Below are positions 6,176 through 21,933 of a stretch of 38,277 nucleotides of DNA, piece after piece. Under the pieces are notes generated by a model that saw only the letters and a list, made by a program, of their open reading frames with translations, was not told the DNA's origin and did no database searches. Numbering within the stretch: position 1 is the stretch's first letter; each line of letters starts with the position of its first letter. Source of the stretch: a virus. A program made the position numbers and the translations under genes. Location of the stretch: the IMG/VR virus record IMGVR_UViG_3300035703_000206, positions 1-38,277 of that record, one strand, 5' to 3'.

Positions 6176-6202
6176 ATCAGTTTATTTTTTATTTTTATTG
6201 TT

Positions 6203-6892
6203 TTAGTTAAAGGTAATTTGTTTTGTTTCAGTATCTAACGTTATGTTTAATGGTTTATATCTATAATTATATTCCTCATCTAATACAGATGCATTTATAA
6301 AATTAGTTACACCATCAAATCTATGTCCTCTTCCAGAATGGATGTGACCACACACGTGTAGAGTAGGTTTAACCCTATCTTTGATATGTCTTACTAACAA
6401 TTCACATCCTAAACTTTCAGTTTTCCCAATCACTTTGTCCACATATCCCCAAGCAGGTCCGTGTGTTATAAGTATATCAGTATCATCAGGTATCAGTTCC
6501 CATTTTGAATTTAACTCATTTGAATTTCTATCTAAGTTAAATGCCCAGTCATAAAATCGTGCTTGCCAAGGTGAGCCGTAAATCTTTACTCCTTCTATTT
6601 CTACTGAATTATCCATTAGGTATGTCACATCACCAAATTTATTCAGTATATCTACCACAGCATTTTCACTAATGTGCGTTTCAAAACAAAAATCGTGGTT
6701 ACCAGCTATAAAGATTTTATGTGTATATGGTTGTTTATCAAACCATTCTAAAAAGTTTCTAACTTGATATAAATAACCTACAGATGAAATATCACCAGCG
6801 TGAATTAGAATATCACCACCAATCATATCACGTGTAAGTTCATTATGTTTATTGTGAGTGTCGCTTATTAAAGTGATATTTAATTTACTCAT
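6203..6892 (-). CDS. Calcineurin-like metallophosphoesterase
   Basis: 229 residues with the complete two-metal phosphoesterase motif series: SDTHNKH near residues 10-16, GDILIHAGDIS, AGNHDFCF, ILITHGPAWG and CGHIHSGRG. The pattern is closest to the MPPED/UPF0046-like branch of single-domain metallophosphoesterases. The substrate cannot be read from the sequence; members hydrolyse phosphodiesters including cyclic nucleotides. It overlaps the RNA ligase gene by 8 nt and has an AAGGAAAC ribosome site within that gene, so both are made together. An RNA-end processing role is an inference from that context. Confidence 0.88.
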   Translation of the reverse strand: MSKLNITLISDTHNKHNELTRDMIGGDILIHAGDISSVGYLYQVRNFLEWFDKQPYTHKIFIAGNHDFCFETHISENAVVDILNKFGDVTYLMDNSVEIEGVKIYGSPWQARFYDWAFNLDRNSNELNSKWELIPDDTDILITHGPAWGYVDKVIGKTESLGCELLVRHIKDRVKPTLHVCGHIHSGRGHRFDGVTNFINASVLDEEYNYRYKPLNITLDTETKQITFN

Positions 6893-11988: not shown

Positions 11989-12060
11989 TAGACTCGCTAG
12001 GAATCGAACCTAGAATCTCGGTTTAGAAGACCGACGTTATATCCATTTAACTACGAGTCC
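11989..12060 (-). tRNA. tRNA-Arg (anticodon UCU)
   Basis: A complete cloverleaf reads on the minus strand: acceptor GGACTCG/CGAGTCT (first pair G-U), D stem GTTA/TAAC, anticodon stem TCGGT/ACCGA with loop CTTCTAA giving anticodon TCT, variable loop GATT, T stem CTAGG/CCTAG with loop TTCGATT, discriminator A. CCA is not encoded. It would read AGA, a codon favoured by this AT-rich genome, and is a plausible substrate of the phage RNA-repair enzymes. Confidence 0.95.
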
Positions 12061-12518: not shown

Positions 12519-12962
12519 TTAAACTAAGCTGATGGTATCACCATTAACCAAATATGTAGTTAAGCCACACTCATCTTTCCACATATTTGTATTCTTTTCC
12601 ATATCATCTATTGCAAATAAAACATCATAATATGGTTGTATATTTTTTTCGTATAATTCACGTTTTGAGATAGGCGATGGTCTATAATCTGTGTTGGGTT
12701 TCATTAATAATACCCATTCACTTCTAGGGTGTAATTTCATAAAATATTTCAACAACCAATTGTATGTTTTTTTATAACACCATTCGTGTCTACCTGTTAG
12801 AAACACAATAAATGTTTGATCATCTATTTTGTTTGAGATCCAATCTATGACTTTTGATTTAGGTAAATCCTCATCTACTCTATTAAAGTCATATACATCT
12901 CTTTCTGTGTGCTGGGCTATTGTTCCATCAATATCAATTATAACCGCTTTTTGTTTTTCCAT
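12519..12962 (-). CDS. HAD-family phosphatase, T4 Pnkp 3'-phosphatase-like
   Basis: 147 residues. Motif I is VIIDIDGTIA with Asp10 and Asp12, followed by a DVYDFNRVDEDLPKSKV segment like that of the T4 polynucleotide kinase phosphatase domain, motif II FLTGRHEWCYKKT, a Lys in LLMKPNTDYRPS, and motif IV FAIDDMEKNTNMW. T4 PseT joins a kinase and this phosphatase in one chain; here the kinase is a separate gene at 9683. It would remove 3'-phosphates or 2',3'-cyclic phosphates from nicked RNA. Confidence in HAD is high; the RNA substrate is inferred. Confidence 0.85.
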   Translation of the reverse strand: MEKQKAVIIDIDGTIAQHTERDVYDFNRVDEDLPKSKVIDWISNKIDDQTFIVFLTGRHEWCYKKTYNWLLKYFMKLHPRSEWVLLMKPNTDYRPSPISKRELYEKNIQPYYDVLFAIDDMEKNTNMWKDECGLTTYLVNGDTISLV

Positions 12963-12993
12963 TTACATCTTAGTTTTTATTAACGTTTCACAT

Positions 12994-13140
12994 TTATCTA
13001 CCTTGCCCAGCGTATCTTTTTACATAGTTTTTTGATGTTTTTATTTTTGATGCTTTATTTTTAGACACTATACCCTTTCTCTTTTTTTTAGGTTTTGGTC
13101 TAAACGTTGTGATATTTGTTTTTAATTTTGGTGAAGCCAT
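12994..13140 (-). CDS. Small basic phage protein, 48 aa
   Basis: Starts at ATG 13140-13138 and stops at TAA 12996-12994. The peptide starts MASPKLKTNITTFRPKPKKK, contains KGIVSKNKASKIKTSKNY and ends in KRYAGQGR. This resembles a very common small phage protein ending in NYxKxYxGQGR. It is strongly cationic with no hydrophobic core, so it may bind nucleic acid or the capsid interior. It lies one base after the zeta-like kinase stop region and upstream of the HAD gene. Confidence 0.75.
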   Translation of the reverse strand: MASPKLKTNITTFRPKPKKKRKGIVSKNKASKIKTSKNYVKRYAGQGR

Positions 13141-17740: not shown

Positions 17741-18782
17741 ATACTATAGTATTAAATGTATCTTTTAACCATAGCATCATATTATCCCAACCATTTGTTA
17801 TTTTATATTTTGATGCCGTTTTCATAAATAGGAATTTATCCAATGGTTTTACCATTTCATTATATCTATTTAATATTTTTAGTTTAAAATCAGTAGCTAT
17901 ATCAACATTTGATAATTGCATAATTTTATAATTTCTATAAAATATATCCTTATTTTGTATTATATCAAAATAAATTTTATATTTTTCAGTTTTGCTTTTA
18001 GTATCACATAGTTCAATGAATTCTTCTAGTGATATTAATTTATCTTCACACAATTCTGGAAACCTTTTTATCAAGGTTTTTAATCCACAACCTTTAATAC
18101 CTGGTACATTATCTGATACGTCGCCGTCCAATGACCTGAATATGCAAAAGTTCTGTGGGTATATACCATACTCATCAAACACTTTATGTCTATTATAAAT
18201 TACTTTTTTAGTGGGTGAATATAAAATAGTAGTTGGACTAATCAATTGTAGAAAATCTTTATCGGTAGACATTATAACACATTGTTCTTCTTTTTGTATT
18301 AGATTTGTTGCAATATAAGCTATTACATCATCCGCTTCAATTCCATCATATACCATAGTCGTTACTGGTAAATAATTTAAACAATCTATTAGTTGAACTA
18401 TTTGAGTGCGCATAGACTCACGCTCTTCATCCTCACTCAATAAATTATCATATTGACGATTTACTCTAAATCGTATAGCTCCACGATCTGACTTGTAACC
18501 TTCGTATATTTTTTTTCGGTCATTTGAACCTTTCTTTCCATCGAATACTAAGATAACACGGGTTGGTTTAACTTCACGTATAATATAGCCAATAGATTTT
18601 AAAAACCCAGTTATACCACCGATATGATTACCATTATCGTCCATTTGTGGATTGGTCGTCCAAGATCGTATAAAAGTATTCAACGAATCAACTATTAAAA
18701 CTCGTGAGTTTCGTAGCCGACTCGTTGAATTTTTATGATCCTTTTTTACCTCATTTAAAATATTTAGGTATAATTGGTTCAT
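17733..18782 (-). CDS. 5'-3' exonuclease, T4 RNase H/FEN-like
   Basis: 349 residues. Metal-binding acidic motifs of the FEN family are present in order: VLIVDSLNTFIRSW near residue 30, RVILVFDGKKGSNDRK, YDGIEADDVIAYIAT, VIMSTDKDFLQLI, and DGDVSDNVPGIKGCGLKT, the helix-hairpin-helix region. In T4 this enzyme removes RNA primers from Okazaki fragments. The ATG overlaps the uvsX exon 2 stop (TAATG), so translation is probably coupled to the recombinase C-terminal cistron. Confidence 0.92.
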   Translation of the reverse strand: MNQLYLNILNEVKKDHKNSTSRLRNSRVLIVDSLNTFIRSWTTNPQMDDNGNHIGGITGFLKSIGYIIREVKPTRVILVFDGKKGSNDRKKIYEGYKSDRGAIRFRVNRQYDNLLSEDEERESMRTQIVQLIDCLNYLPVTTMVYDGIEADDVIAYIATNLIQKEEQCVIMSTDKDFLQLISPTTILYSPTKKVIYNRHKVFDEYGIYPQNFCIFRSLDGDVSDNVPGIKGCGLKTLIKRFPELCEDKLISLEEFIELCDTKSKTEKYKIYFDIIQNKDIFYRNYKIMQLSNVDIATDFKLKILNRYNEMVKPLDKFLFMKTASKYKITNGWDNMMLWLKDTFNTIVYE

Positions 18783-19222
18783 TAGTCAATTTCATTTACA
18801 TCATCTATTACAAGTTCACCAACATCAATTTCTTCTTTTCGATATTGTAAAATTGTAGCATCGCAAATTTTAGAGTATATTTGTTCTCTTAATGCATTTC
18901 TATTGGTTAGTATTTCTACAAAGTCTTTGGACTGAAATTTTATTTCTTCACCAGTTTCAGTATCAATATAAGTATACCAAGCTCCGGCTTGTTTAAGCAA
19001 TCCACTATCCTTTAAAACCTGTAACCAACTACCATAATTATCAATACCACGATCAAATAGTATATCAAAATCTGCTGATCTTAATGGCGGACCCATTCTA
19101 TTTTTAATAACCTGTGCCCTGACCTTAATACCAACAATACGTTCATTATTACCGACTTTAGCTTTTATTGTCCCCATACTTTTTAACCTAATACGAACCG
19201 ACGAGTGAAATGCAAGTGCTTT
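18782..19222 (-). CDS. uvsX: UvsX/RecA recombinase, exon 2 (C-terminal part)
   Basis: 146 codons from the predicted 3' splice site to TAA. It begins KALAFHSSVRIRLKSMG, the RecA region right after the TTSGG of loop L2, and continues with MGPPLRSADFDILFDRGIDN, matching the RecA/UvsX C-terminal core, then an acidic tail (VGELVIDDVNEID). The frame also runs upstream for 17 codons to an ATG at 19273, but those codons are intron sequence (P9 region) and not homologous to RecA. Joined to exon 1 after splicing, it completes the second uvsX cistron. Confidence 0.9.
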   Translation of the reverse strand, partial: KALAFHSSVRIRLKSMGTIKAKVGNNERIVGIKVRAQVIKNRMGPPLRSADFDILFDRGIDNYGSWLQVLKDSGLLKQAGAWYTYIDTETGEEIKFQSKDFVEILTNRNALREQIYSKICDATILQYRKEEIDVGELVIDDVNEID

Positions 19223-19259
19223 CAATTTTGTTACCGTATAGTCATTTAAACTATACTTC

Positions 19260-20126
19260 TTATAGTTTCCCATAAGTTCGGACTATATCTTTATCAAATT
19301 TACTTATTATAGACAAAACATTAATTTCACTTATATCAGATTCAAAAATATGATAAACATTATAACCATAGCTAGTTATTATTTTATGCCTAATCCGATC
19401 GGATTCCCATACAGATTCTGCTGATAATAATCTATTTCCTGGATATTTTATTAATTCGTTTTTATCATATTTAGATGGATTTGCGTGCCAATAATCACCA
19501 TCGGCTTCAATTATTAAATTGTAGTCAGGTAAATAAAAATCTACATATATCCCAGGAATTTCATCAAATTGATGAATATATTTAATATTGTTAGAATCTA
19601 GTATGGTTTTAATCATACGTTCTGGCTTTGTATTTTTACTACCACCTGGTATTTTATTTTTTTTACTCCAATTTAATAAACGTAAATCAGCTTCATCTTT
19701 TCCATATTTATCAAACCAACGTTGCCAATTAGATTTTTTATAGTGATGATGATCTTTTCCTTTTATAGAAGTAAACATAACTTTAAATTTATCGGGAAAT
19801 TGTCTAACCACTTCTTTCATTCGTTGACTTTGATTTAATTTATAATCATCACGCTTTACAGCGTTACGAGCTGAATTTTTACGTTTTTCAGAATCCTTCT
19901 GAATACTTTGCTGATATTTAAAATGCTTTTTGTTTTCTTCGGAGTATATCCAATTTGATAATATTTCAAAGTGATTATCGGAAATCATCTTTGAATTTGG
20001 AAATCTTAGTTTATACTCTTCAGTTTTCATATTATGTTTGTGTTTAAGATGTGAATTAGTTATAGATTTAAAAAAATTACCACATAATTCACATTTCAAT
20101 AAGTTAGCTTGATAATCGGTACTCAT
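19260..20126 (-). CDS. Vsr-like (EDxHD-type) homing endonuclease in the intron
   Basis: 288 residues. An N-terminal C2H2-like finger (CELCGNFFKSITNSHLKHKH) is followed by a basic helical linker with NUMOD-like repeats (SARNAVKRDDYKLNQSQRM). The C-terminal nuclease domain runs from about 165: NTKPERMIKTILDSNNIKY, then PGIYVDFYLPDYNLIIEADG and DYWHANPSKYDKNE, with predicted catalytic Glu, Asp and His typical of Vsr-fold homing enzymes such as I-Bth0305I. Its last codons (KDIVRTYGKL) overlap the S element of the intron, so protein and ribozyme constrain the same bases. It probably cuts intronless uvsX alleles. An ATATACTTATAT element 16 nt before the ATG may give it its own promoter. Confidence 0.88.
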   Translation of the reverse strand: MSTDYQANLLKCELCGNFFKSITNSHLKHKHNMKTEEYKLRFPNSKMISDNHFEILSNWIYSEENKKHFKYQQSIQKDSEKRKNSARNAVKRDDYKLNQSQRMKEVVRQFPDKFKVMFTSIKGKDHHHYKKSNWQRWFDKYGKDEADLRLLNWSKKNKIPGGSKNTKPERMIKTILDSNNIKYIHQFDEIPGIYVDFYLPDYNLIIEADGDYWHANPSKYDKNELIKYPGNRLLSAESVWESDRIRHKIITSYGYNVYHIFESDISEINVLSIISKFDKDIVRTYGKL

Positions 20127-20142
20127 GTCACTTTCTTCTTTA

Positions 20143-20154
20143 ATATAAGTATAT
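20143..20154 (-). promoter_or_regulatory. Candidate promoter element before the intron endonuclease
   Basis: The exact 12-mer ATATACTTATAT, also seen at 36571-36582 and 14138-14149, ends 16 nt before the endonuclease ATG and is followed by an AAGAAGAAAGTG ribosome region. No -35 box is evident. Independent expression inside the intron would parallel the late promoter of T4 I-TevI. Confidence 0.4.
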
Positions 20155-20389
20155 ACTATTATGAAAAGTTAAGTCCTTTCCCAATTTACATTTTATTATA
20201 TGTAAAGATTACTAATGTTAGTCTCTGAACCTCCAACTCATTACTAAGAAGTTTGGCTGCTGATTGTCCAATCTTTTAATTTTTTAAACATTCACACTGT
20301 CCATTACTGAATATGTTGTAGTATAAAAGCTCTAAGGAGTTTCCAGCAATTCACCGATTTTTGTTATAGCGGAGGCAAAATTAGCTAAT

Positions 20390-20767
20390 ACCACCGCTTG
20401 TAGTATTATGATTTACATAACCATTTGCAATATATCGCTCTGTATCTGTAACCGTAATATCCACAACGTTCATTTCTCCGTTCATTTTAACAGCATTTGG
20501 ATGATCTTTTAACTTAATAAAATCAGATCCTTCTAATACTCTATGATTTGAAGTTCCACGTAAATCACCAAGTTGATAGTATTCACCTACCTTTGGCTTT
20601 ACCATAAAACTTTCAATATCTTTAAATACCAAATTACCATCCACGTTGGTAGATTCAACTTGTAACCCAGACCAACTTAAATCATAAATTTCTGGATTAT
20701 CTAAATTCATATCTAATATGGATGCCAATTCAAACATCGTCATTTCCTTTTCTATTGTATTATTCAT
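20390..20767 (-). CDS. uvsX: UvsX second cistron, exon 1: C-half of split intein plus TTSGG
   Basis: The ATG at 20767 overlaps the stop of the first cistron (ATGA). It codes for the 121-residue intein C half, then the extein residues T-T-S-G-G, after which the group I intron begins. Without RNA splicing, translation would run into the intron and stop after two more codons (I, S, TAA at 20383-20381). After splicing, the cistron encodes 121 + 5 + 146 residues. The extein pentapeptide is the conserved RecA L2 TTGG/TTSGG motif. Confidence 0.9.
20405..20767 (-). other. Split intein C half (IntC), 121 residues
   Basis: Intein block B is GTSNHRVLEG (about residues 70-79), block F is VVDITVTDTERYIANGY and block G ends in VNHN, with the penultimate His and terminal Asn needed for C-terminal cleavage. 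The +1 extein residue is Thr, an allowed nucleophile. It has its own start codon. Its length, with the very short partner, matches atypically split inteins, which break soon after block A. Confidence 0.9.
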
Positions 20768-21933
20768 TTAACACCTCTTTCTATTTTGTTATGGAATTCT
20801 TTATAAAATTCCGAATCTGTATTATATCGTATTTTAATTTTGGTTGTAAATGGATCAACACACCACGGATCTGCAAATGGCATAGCATTCATTTTTTGAC
20901 GTAACTGATTGGTAAATATTAATGTAATCTTTTCTCTACCGATCATATTAGTAATCTTACGCATTGCCTTGGATATAATAATAGCTTTATCCGTTGCGTA
21001 ACCATCTTTATCGTAATCGGATGCCAATTCTTTTTTTGTAGAAACTGCAGCAACAGAATCAACAACAATCGTTACTAATTTATCCTTTGAAGAAGTCCTA
21101 ACTTTTTCAATTATGTTTTCAATATATTCAAAAACATCTTCAACTGAATCTGCTTGAACATATAATAATTTAGCAACATCAACTCCAATTGCGTCTAAAT
21201 ACTCACGACTAACCGCCATTTCAGTATCAATCAAAACTGCAACACCACCTTGTCGTTGTGTTTCAGCTAAAACGTGTGCAGATACCAAAGATTTTCCAGA
21301 GTTATGATTTAACATACCATTTCCAAAATATGAATGATCTTCACTATCAACTTCAATATCAACGATTGGATATTTACCAACATACTCAAACGATATTACT
21401 GAATAATATTGATTATCGTCACATAAAATTTTGGTTGATCCAAGTTTAAGCTTATCAAACGCAACCCAACCTTGATTTGTAAAAAATCTATGTTTACTAG
21501 ATACCTTTATGCTATAATCATTACTCAATGTAACTTTATATGTGGGTAAAATACCCTTTTCAAAGTAACTTTTTACTTTTACATATTCATCATTTATAGT
21601 TTTTACTTTTATCGTTTTACCGGCTTTAAGTAAAGATTTTATCTCACTTATTTTTATTTTTTCTTTTTTCATTTCAATTATAACATCAATAATTGTATCT
21701 TCGGTAACACATTGTTCCAAACCCGTTAACTCGGATATTCTACCAATGGGAAACCCACCATTCGCTCTGTTTGATATTGCTAAATCTAACATAGATGCTC
21801 CACTTGATACCCAGCCAATAACATTGGCTGGAGTATCATCGGAGTCCAAAAAGAATGCAACCTTTTGATCTTTAGCAGTTTTATTTAACGATTCTGCTAG
21901 AATATCTGCTAAATCAATTTCTTTTTTTGACAT
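20764..21933 (-). CDS. uvsX: UvsX/RecA recombinase, first cistron, with P-loop intein and IntN
   Basis: 389 residues: extein 1-74, intein 75-211, extein 212-357, split-intein N half 358-389. The extein reads SELTGLEQ-SGKSLVSAHVLAETQ across the Walker A, then AVLIDTEMAV, YVQADSVEDVFEYIE, VTIVVDSVAAVSTKKEL (Walker B) and TLIFTNQLRQKMNAMPFADPW, all canonical RecA/UvsX. It lies 20 nt after the gp32-like gene, as expected for a replication operon. The complete recombinase after all splicing would be 371 residues, close to RecA (352) and T4 UvsX (391). It polymerises on ssDNA for strand exchange and recombination-dependent replication. As written the P-loop is broken, so activity depends on intein removal. 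Confidence 0.95.
   Translation of the reverse strand: MSKKEIDLADILAESLNKTAKDQKVAFFLDSDDTPANVIGWVSSGASMLDLAISNRANGGFPIGRISELTGLEQCVTEDTIIDVIIEMKKEKIKISEIKSLLKAGKTIKVKTINDEYVKVKSYFEKGILPTYKVTLSNDYSIKVSSKHRFFTNQGWVAFDKLKLGSTKILCDDNQYYSVISFEYVGKYPIVDIEVDSEDHSYFGNGMLNHNSGKSLVSAHVLAETQRQGGVAVLIDTEMAVSREYLDAIGVDVAKLLYVQADSVEDVFEYIENIIEKVRTSSKDKLVTIVVDSVAAVSTKKELASDYDKDGYATDKAIIISKAMRKITNMIGREKITLIFTNQLRQKMNAMPFADPWCVDPFTTKIKIRYNTDSEFYKEFHNKIERGVK
20767..20862 (-). other. Split intein N half (IntN), 32 residues
   Basis: It begins at Cys (CVDPFTTKIKIRYN, block A), directly after DPW of the RecA core, and ends at GVK-stop. Block A alone is present; block B is on the other cistron. At 32 residues it is among the short N halves. 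The insertion position in RecA, before TTSGG, joins cleanly to the C-half extein. Confidence 0.9.
21301..21711 (-). other. Mini-intein in the UvsX Walker A loop, 137 residues
   Basis: Block A is CVTEDTIIDV with Cys1, block B is VSSKHRFFT, block F is PIVDIEVDSEDHSYFGNGM and block G ends LNHN, followed by the +1 Ser of SGKS. There is no endonuclease domain between blocks B and F. Its excision restores G-L-E-Q-S-G-K-S, a standard GxxxxGKS P-loop. All residues for cis protein splicing are present. Confidence 0.95.

Follow-up and report, generated by a model that had tools for sequence, protein, structure and literature searches.

In the 38,277-nucleotide (nt) stretch of viral DNA analyzed here in full (IMG/VR record IMGVR_UViG_3300035703_000206, positions 1 to 38,277; hereafter, the window), the recombinase gene uvsX is very probably a fractured phage gene whose expression requires both RNA splicing and protein trans-splicing. 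A split class-1 intein (Cys1/Thr+1), broken at the position termed S1, interrupts what we take to be the L2 DNA-binding loop, and a group I intron encoding an EDxHD nuclease begins 15 nt (five codons) downstream of the intein, which is most likely carried by intron homing. The anatomy of the locus, its exact register, its conservation in four lineages, purifying selection and the exchange of the cassette can be read from the sequences themselves. We infer splicing itself, as well as cleavage of the empty site and mobilization of both elements by the nuclease. The virus infects bacteria. The features of the locus are as follows, where a slash marks an intein junction, and IntN and IntC denote the N- and C-terminal intein halves.

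21712..21933, minus strand: uvsX/recA N-extein, part 1, codons 1-74 (..SELTGLEQ); Pfam RecA, E 3.2e-32 for the open reading frame (ORF)
21301..21711, minus strand: contiguous mini-intein in the P-loop, 137 amino acids (aa) (GLEQ/CVTED...LNHN/SGKS); matches to intein_Nterm and intein_Cterm
20863..21300, minus strand: uvsX extein, part 2, 146 codons (SGKS..FADPW); alignment to uninterrupted relatives
20767..20862, minus strand: IntN, 32 aa, comprising block A and an 18-aa tail, with the stop TGA at 20766-20764; ORF translation and alignment with relatives
20772..20778, minus strand: Shine-Dalgarno-like agaggtg for IntC, within the IntN tail; upstream-motif comparison
20405..20767, minus strand: IntC, 121 aa, with its ATG overlapping the IntN stop (ATGA) and C-terminus VNHN; ORF translation, alignment and AlphaFold2 (AF2) model
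20390..20404, minus strand: TTSGG, the five-codon C-extein micro-exon that separates intein and intron; DPW-TTSGG-KA is unbroken in empty relatives
19223..20389, minus strand: group I intron, 1167 nt, with the 5' splice site after GGT and the 3' splice site after G19223; RF00028 pieces, P1 pairing and 3' hairpins
20368..20376, minus strand: internal guide sequence gcctccgct, which forms P1 with exon agcggtggt and places U.G at the splice site; exon and guide covary across L001/L007/L168/L169
20219..20223, minus strand: P7 5' strand, gacta; inspection and comparison of introns
19281..19285, minus strand: P7 3' strand, tagtc, inside the endonuclease reading frame; inspection and comparison of introns
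19260..20126, minus strand: intron-encoded EDxHD/Vsr-like homing endonuclease gene (HEG), 288 aa; profile match to PDB 3r3p, E 6.6e-7
19236..19276, minus strand: P9 and the hairpin that follows it, both covarying, at the 3' end of the intron; covariation count
18782..19222, minus strand: uvsX exon 2, the rest of the C-extein, 146 codons and stop (KALAFHSSVR...); translation and Pfam

The minus-strand ORF 21933-20764 encodes 389 aa and, in translation, ends in ...FADPW-CVDPFTTKIKIRYNTDSEFYKEFHNKIERGVK followed by a stop. CVDPFTTKIKIRYNTDSEFYKEFHNKIERGVK is IntN, with 32 codons at 20862-20767 (minus strand) and the stop at 20766-20764. A second minus-strand ORF, 20767-20381, begins within the overlapping ATGA and translates as IntC (121 aa) followed by TTSGGIS and a stop; the Thr directly after VNHN is the +1 residue. 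All class-1 residues were present, namely Cys1, the block B His (GTSNHR), the penultimate His, the terminal Asn and Thr+1, so that the coordinates, half lengths and residues given in the original prediction, made from the sequence alone, were confirmed in the translations. Models of IntC and of a contiguous homologue showed a HINT fold, the leading PDB matches being inteins (template-modeling score by query up to 0.72), at moderate model confidence (predicted local distance difference test 76.9 for the AF2 model of IntC and 74 for the homologue). A break at S1, after β2, is described for VidaL and PolB16, and a break at S2, after α1, for AceL-TerL and GOS-TerL (PMC13014065). The AF2 model of IntC includes α1 (helix 11-17 of IntC), which places the break upstream of this helix. 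Because α1 belongs to IntC, the modeled split position is S1, VidaL-like rather than AceL-like. The proposal of an AceL-TerL-type early break therefore held for the short IntN and the break near the N end, but not for the site, since the split does not follow α1, and the IntN carries an extra tail of about 18 aa. With two separate ORFs, an IntN within about 15-37 aa and a break near the N end, the window intein is, from its sequence, an additional member of the short-IntN split class, and trans-splicing is predicted.

The first ORF encodes the N-terminal portion of a UvsX/RecA recombinase (Pfam RecA, E 3.2e-32; PHROG UvsX-like, 1.6e-40). The two halves had been described as adjacent cistrons sharing ATGA; the overlap is real, yet this account was incomplete, as the C-extein is cut by the group I intron five codons on. 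The IntC ORF stops two codons inside the intron; if only these two ORFs were trans-spliced, the product would therefore be ...DPW-TTSGGIS and not UvsX. Removal of the mini-intein, the split intein and the intron gave a 371-aa UvsX with no internal stop (codons 1-74, 146 codons, TTSGG and exon 2), and this predicted spliced protein contains the peptide ...FADPWTTSGGKALAFHSSVR. The loci designated here by L numbers are relatives found by searching IMG/VR. Compared with the uninterrupted protein of L008, the spliced UvsX was identical in 284 of 373 columns, the two gap columns lying outside the printed alignment stretches that cross the P-loop and L2 junctions; 212 of 384 positions were identical to RecA of Microcystis phage Mel-JY01. 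Empty relatives carry the uninterrupted sequence FxDPW-TTSGG-KA(L/I)AFH, and the insertion point of the split intein is DPW/TTSGG. The assignment of the insertion sites to the L2 loop (split intein) and the P-loop (mini-intein) presumes general knowledge of RecA. Among the four lineages that combine split intein and intron, only the window carries the P-loop mini-intein (21301-21711), which is absent from L001, L007 and L168.

The intron has several hallmarks of group I: P1 with U.G at the splice site, P4-P6, the P7 strands and a terminal G. Two pieces matched the Rfam model RF00028, at 20351-20217 (E 8.3e-7, 35.1 bits) and 19359-19259 (E 4.8e-5, 29.2 bits); they flank the nuclease ORF, and the second overlaps its end. 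In P1, exon agcggtggt pairs with guide gcctccgct at 8 of 9 positions. This pairing covaries: the window has exon agc and guide gct, L001, L007 and L168 have exon agt and guide act, and L169 has cct with agt (read by eye; the MAFFT alignment misplaced its guide sequence). The P7 strands gacta and tagtc and the terminal G were found in all five introns (window, L001, L007, L168 and L169). In the 3' hairpins, 7 of 14 pairs showed two-sided changes, and 98.6% of 69 cells were paired, as against 26.1-56.5% when the strands were slid. A scan of the window at Rfam gathering thresholds returned a tRNA only; the threshold had to be lowered for the intron to be detected. The tRNA gene lies at 11989-12060 (minus strand; 68.1 bits).

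The best solved match of the nuclease profile was PDB 3r3p, "Mobile intron protein" (E 6.6e-7), covering residues 165-249 only. We take 3r3p to be I-Bth0305I, and homology to the catalytic domain of that enzyme places the window nuclease among the EDxHD nucleases. Across five loci the intron-borne HEGs share 51-66% identity. Where HEGs lie between split intein halves in other relatives, their resemblance to the intron-borne ones is mostly in the catalytic C-terminal region (69-228 aa, 22-38% identity in the main matches). The last HEG codons (window 19260-19285, minus strand) also supply P9 and the 3' strand of P7 in the intron core. At first sight HEG and extein distances seemed to conflict; worked by hand, both favored the same four-taxon grouping, and the comparison was not used.

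The same uvsX site occurs in IMG/VR in a series of states, for which the occupied-site counts are biased, as they come from two relative searches with the best 80 of each. The site is empty in 153 locus entries, including several loci from the same contig. A contiguous intein without an intron occupies it in L087/L179. Split halves flank an EDxHD-like nuclease ORF in L089, L172/L173, L175 and L090, with no intron where this could be seen, and in L088 they flank a 147-aa ORF (6196-6636) of no assigned family where relatives have the EDxHD nuclease. Adjacent halves followed by an intron with a nuclease are found in the window, L001/L002, L007 and L167/L168, and an intron without an intein in L169, with nuclease, and L184, without. 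The intron was thus present in 4 of 4 lineages with adjacent halves and in 0 of 4 in which an ORF separates the halves and the 3' side could be seen (L090 ends inside IntC and was left out); this split has a chance of 1 in 70 if random (calculated by hand), although the lineages are related, so that it is no clean test. One codon site therefore presents an empty state, a contiguous intein, a split intein with a nuclease between its halves, a split intein with an intron nuclease, and an intron with or without nuclease, a series that makes the origin of split inteins, and their persistence in the absence of an endonuclease, testable. The L184 intron (about 12667-13077, reverse complement) is a roughly 0.41-kb version of the uvsX intron, lacking both the nuclease gene and the intein. 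By eye, a Vsr-like ORF follows uvsX in L088 (7542-7940), and a short ORF resembling the C-terminal end of a Vsr-like nuclease lies directly after the contiguous-intein uvsX in L087 (2449-2667); the latter is perhaps a remnant of a nuclease that once mobilized the contiguous intein.

The phages carrying L168 and L179 are close relatives: in most blocks their flanks show 94-98% identity. Over exon 1, counted to the last codon ahead of the intein, 654 of 666 nt agree, and over exon 2, counted from the base that directly follows the intron, 432 of 447 nt agree. By blastn, the similarity is lost some 20 nt into the intein and returns precisely where exon 2 starts. L168 carries the split intein, TTSGG and the intron with its HEG. 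In L179 the intein is contiguous (about 34% identity with IntC of L168), the TTSGG codons differ and there is no intron. The simplest reading of these sequences is one exchange of the whole cassette. Because two near-identical phages differ exactly by the cassette, split intein and intron appear to move as one unit, and because the split intein and spacer encode no nuclease, the intron nuclease is the likeliest driver for both elements. I-Bth0305I recognizes nearly 60 bp (PMC3943268), which is long enough to span both insertion points. By contrast, neighboring inteins that each have their own nuclease interfere rather than cooperate, as described in PMC10643990. We consider the chances evenly balanced that the split intein, the five-codon spacer and the group I intron form one composite mobile element, in which the intron nuclease would recognize the intact DPW-TTSGG-KA DNA, repair would copy both elements, and the intein would have been kept split after losing its own between-halves nuclease. 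Alternatively, the two elements may have been inserted separately at a popular target and merely co-reside, the nuclease moving the intron only. The existence of the intron without an intein (L169 with and L184 without HEG) and of split inteins without the intron (L088, L089, L172 and L175) makes this a possibility to be taken seriously, if a somewhat doubtful one given the 4 of 4 versus 0 of 4 distribution and the difference of L168 and L179 by the whole cassette, including the TTSGG codons.

The split arrangement recurs in the three divergent phage lineages L001/L002, L007 and L167/L168, whose IntC is 58%, 56% and 50% identical to that of the window, respectively. The ORFs of the halves meet at -4 nt in the window, -20 in L001, -14 in L007 and +1 in L168, that is, they overlap in L001 and L007 and are separated by a 1-nt gap in L168. 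The relative frame of the halves is +2 in the window and +1 in L001, L007 and L168. A Shine-Dalgarno-like motif precedes the IntC ATG in three of the four lineages (agaggtg, aggaga, aggagg). A contiguous intein at the same site in L087/L179 favors the rival view that the intein is effectively contiguous here as well, the stop being a sequencing or assembly error or being bypassed by programmed frameshifting at ATGA, so that no trans-splicing would be needed. This is very unlikely: because the junctions vary, from a 20-nt overlap to a 1-nt gap, and lie in two relative frames, the break, which is kept in four lineages, reflects neither a sequencing error nor a conserved frameshift, and ribosome-binding motifs precede IntC in most of them. 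An error removing the stop at 20764-20766, named in the original prediction as the finding that would overturn it, is thereby excluded. Nine inteins at the site aligned end to end with 24 invariant columns, and Cys1, the block B His and the terminal His-Asn were invariant in all nine. The IntN tail (DSxFYxEYHxKL-like) is found in the four intron-linked inteins and is absent from the other aligned ones. In a search for relatives among isolated phages, tblastn against 50,697 phage records found no match to the window IntC or to the joined IntN-IntC of L172, and 202 pattern matches in genome contigs included no relative of IntC. Among the lineages, pairs of IntN, IntC and HEG gave nonsynonymous rates (dN) of 0.17-0.43 and synonymous rates (dS), where computable, of 0.8-3.4, which in these sequences points to purifying selection on all three. 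That uvsX is dead or being lost, its pieces being remnants of failed insertions, as three interruptions within one gene might suggest, is hardly credible when four lineages have kept their catalytic residues, exon register, P1 pairing and ORFs intact and dN is below dS wherever dS could be computed.

Several points weigh against the interpretation of uvsX as a gene assembled by two kinds of splicing. Splicing was deduced from the sequence, and the sequences concerned, those of the occupied relatives as well as the window, come from IMG/VR virus contigs and not from isolates. Both RF00028 scores are under the 50-bit gathering cut-off, presumably because the ORF interrupts the core, and P3 and P8 could not be resolved by eye or by a pairing analysis of the intron. 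IntC is weak in Pfam (E 0.023, below cut-off), and L168 lacks a clear Shine-Dalgarno sequence before IntC. Linked mobility is drawn from one allele pair (L168/L179), either member of which may be ancestral.

If uvsX is indeed assembled in this way, UvsX-N-IntN would be translated first, and IntC-UvsX-C would be made by re-initiation or from a start site within the 3' end of the IntN coding sequence, in the IntN tail. On unspliced RNA the IntC product would end two codons into the intron; self-splicing of the group I intron would complete the IntC message, and translation would then read on into exon 2. The two polypeptides would associate and trans-splice at DPW/TTSGG, and in the window phage the P-loop mini-intein would leave separately by cis-splicing. 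Intron homing would carry the split intein along. The relative amounts of the two products, which the original prediction expected to be near equal, and their timing are likewise conjectural; two splicing steps in succession, self-splicing of RNA and then trans-splicing of protein, could slow or gate production of the recombinase.

Precedents exist for short-IntN split inteins, for EDxHD introns, for split-intein genes fractured by a nuclease and for genes with both an intron and an intein. VidaL and PolB16 OarG likewise have a short IntN (16 and 15 aa), a break after β2 and before α1, and a long IntC, as described in PMC13014065 and PMC10189870; the window intein differs from these descriptions in having Cys1/Thr+1, an IntN of 32 aa that is lengthened by a conserved tail, cistrons that abut and a C-extein broken by an intron. 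AceL-TerL and GOS-TerL likewise pair a natural short IntN (25 and 37 aa) with a large IntC (104 and 115 aa), and, as reported in PMC13014065 and PMC11766414, are split at S2 and, by name, in terminase, whereas the window intein is split at S1 in UvsX. The I-Bth0305I intron is likewise a phage group I intron (PMC3943268), and its nuclease shares catalytic-domain homology with that of the window, but the window intron shares its site with a split intein. SPβ nrdE likewise combines RNA- and protein-splicing elements in one phage gene, although the available text of PMC3653736 describes neither a split intein nor a cassette 15 nt apart. Collaborative homing likewise involves an endonuclease that mobilizes a neighboring self-splicing element outside which it lies; the cases presented in PMC10448857 pair an intron with a nuclease outside it, whereas in the window the intron nuclease would carry a split intein. 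The available text of PMC3653736, PMC10643990, PMC10448857 and PMC2814812 does not describe a split-intein/intron cassette. A literature search found no paper joining a split intein with UvsX and no split intein with a nuclease-bearing group I intron 15 nt on, although several key papers were not covered and this is no proof of absence. The composite of split intein and adjoining intron, present in four lineages and apparently exchanged as a unit, would be a new variant. An intein named "VidaL UvsX-2" is also known, and the I-Bth0305I intron is located in recA. In the fractured genes of Dassa et al. (2009), split intein halves reportedly flank a homing endonuclease gene. That arrangement was seen at the uvsX site in L089, L090, L172 and L175; the window, unlike fractured genes of this type, has no such gene or anything else between the halves, which overlap by 4 nt, and its EDxHD nuclease resides in the neighboring intron. 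Short-IntN split inteins with a native cistron overlap are added candidates for protein labeling.

Further intein-like sequences were noticed in the relatives. In L087 (3775-4551) and L175 (6953-7741), an adjacent DnaB-like helicase gene is broken at the P-loop Lys by CVGxxT.. sequences resembling further N-inteins. In L003 (505-3696), an ORF that is terminase-like by eye contains a large contiguous intein ending in NGYVNHN/T, with a C-terminal block as in the window IntC.
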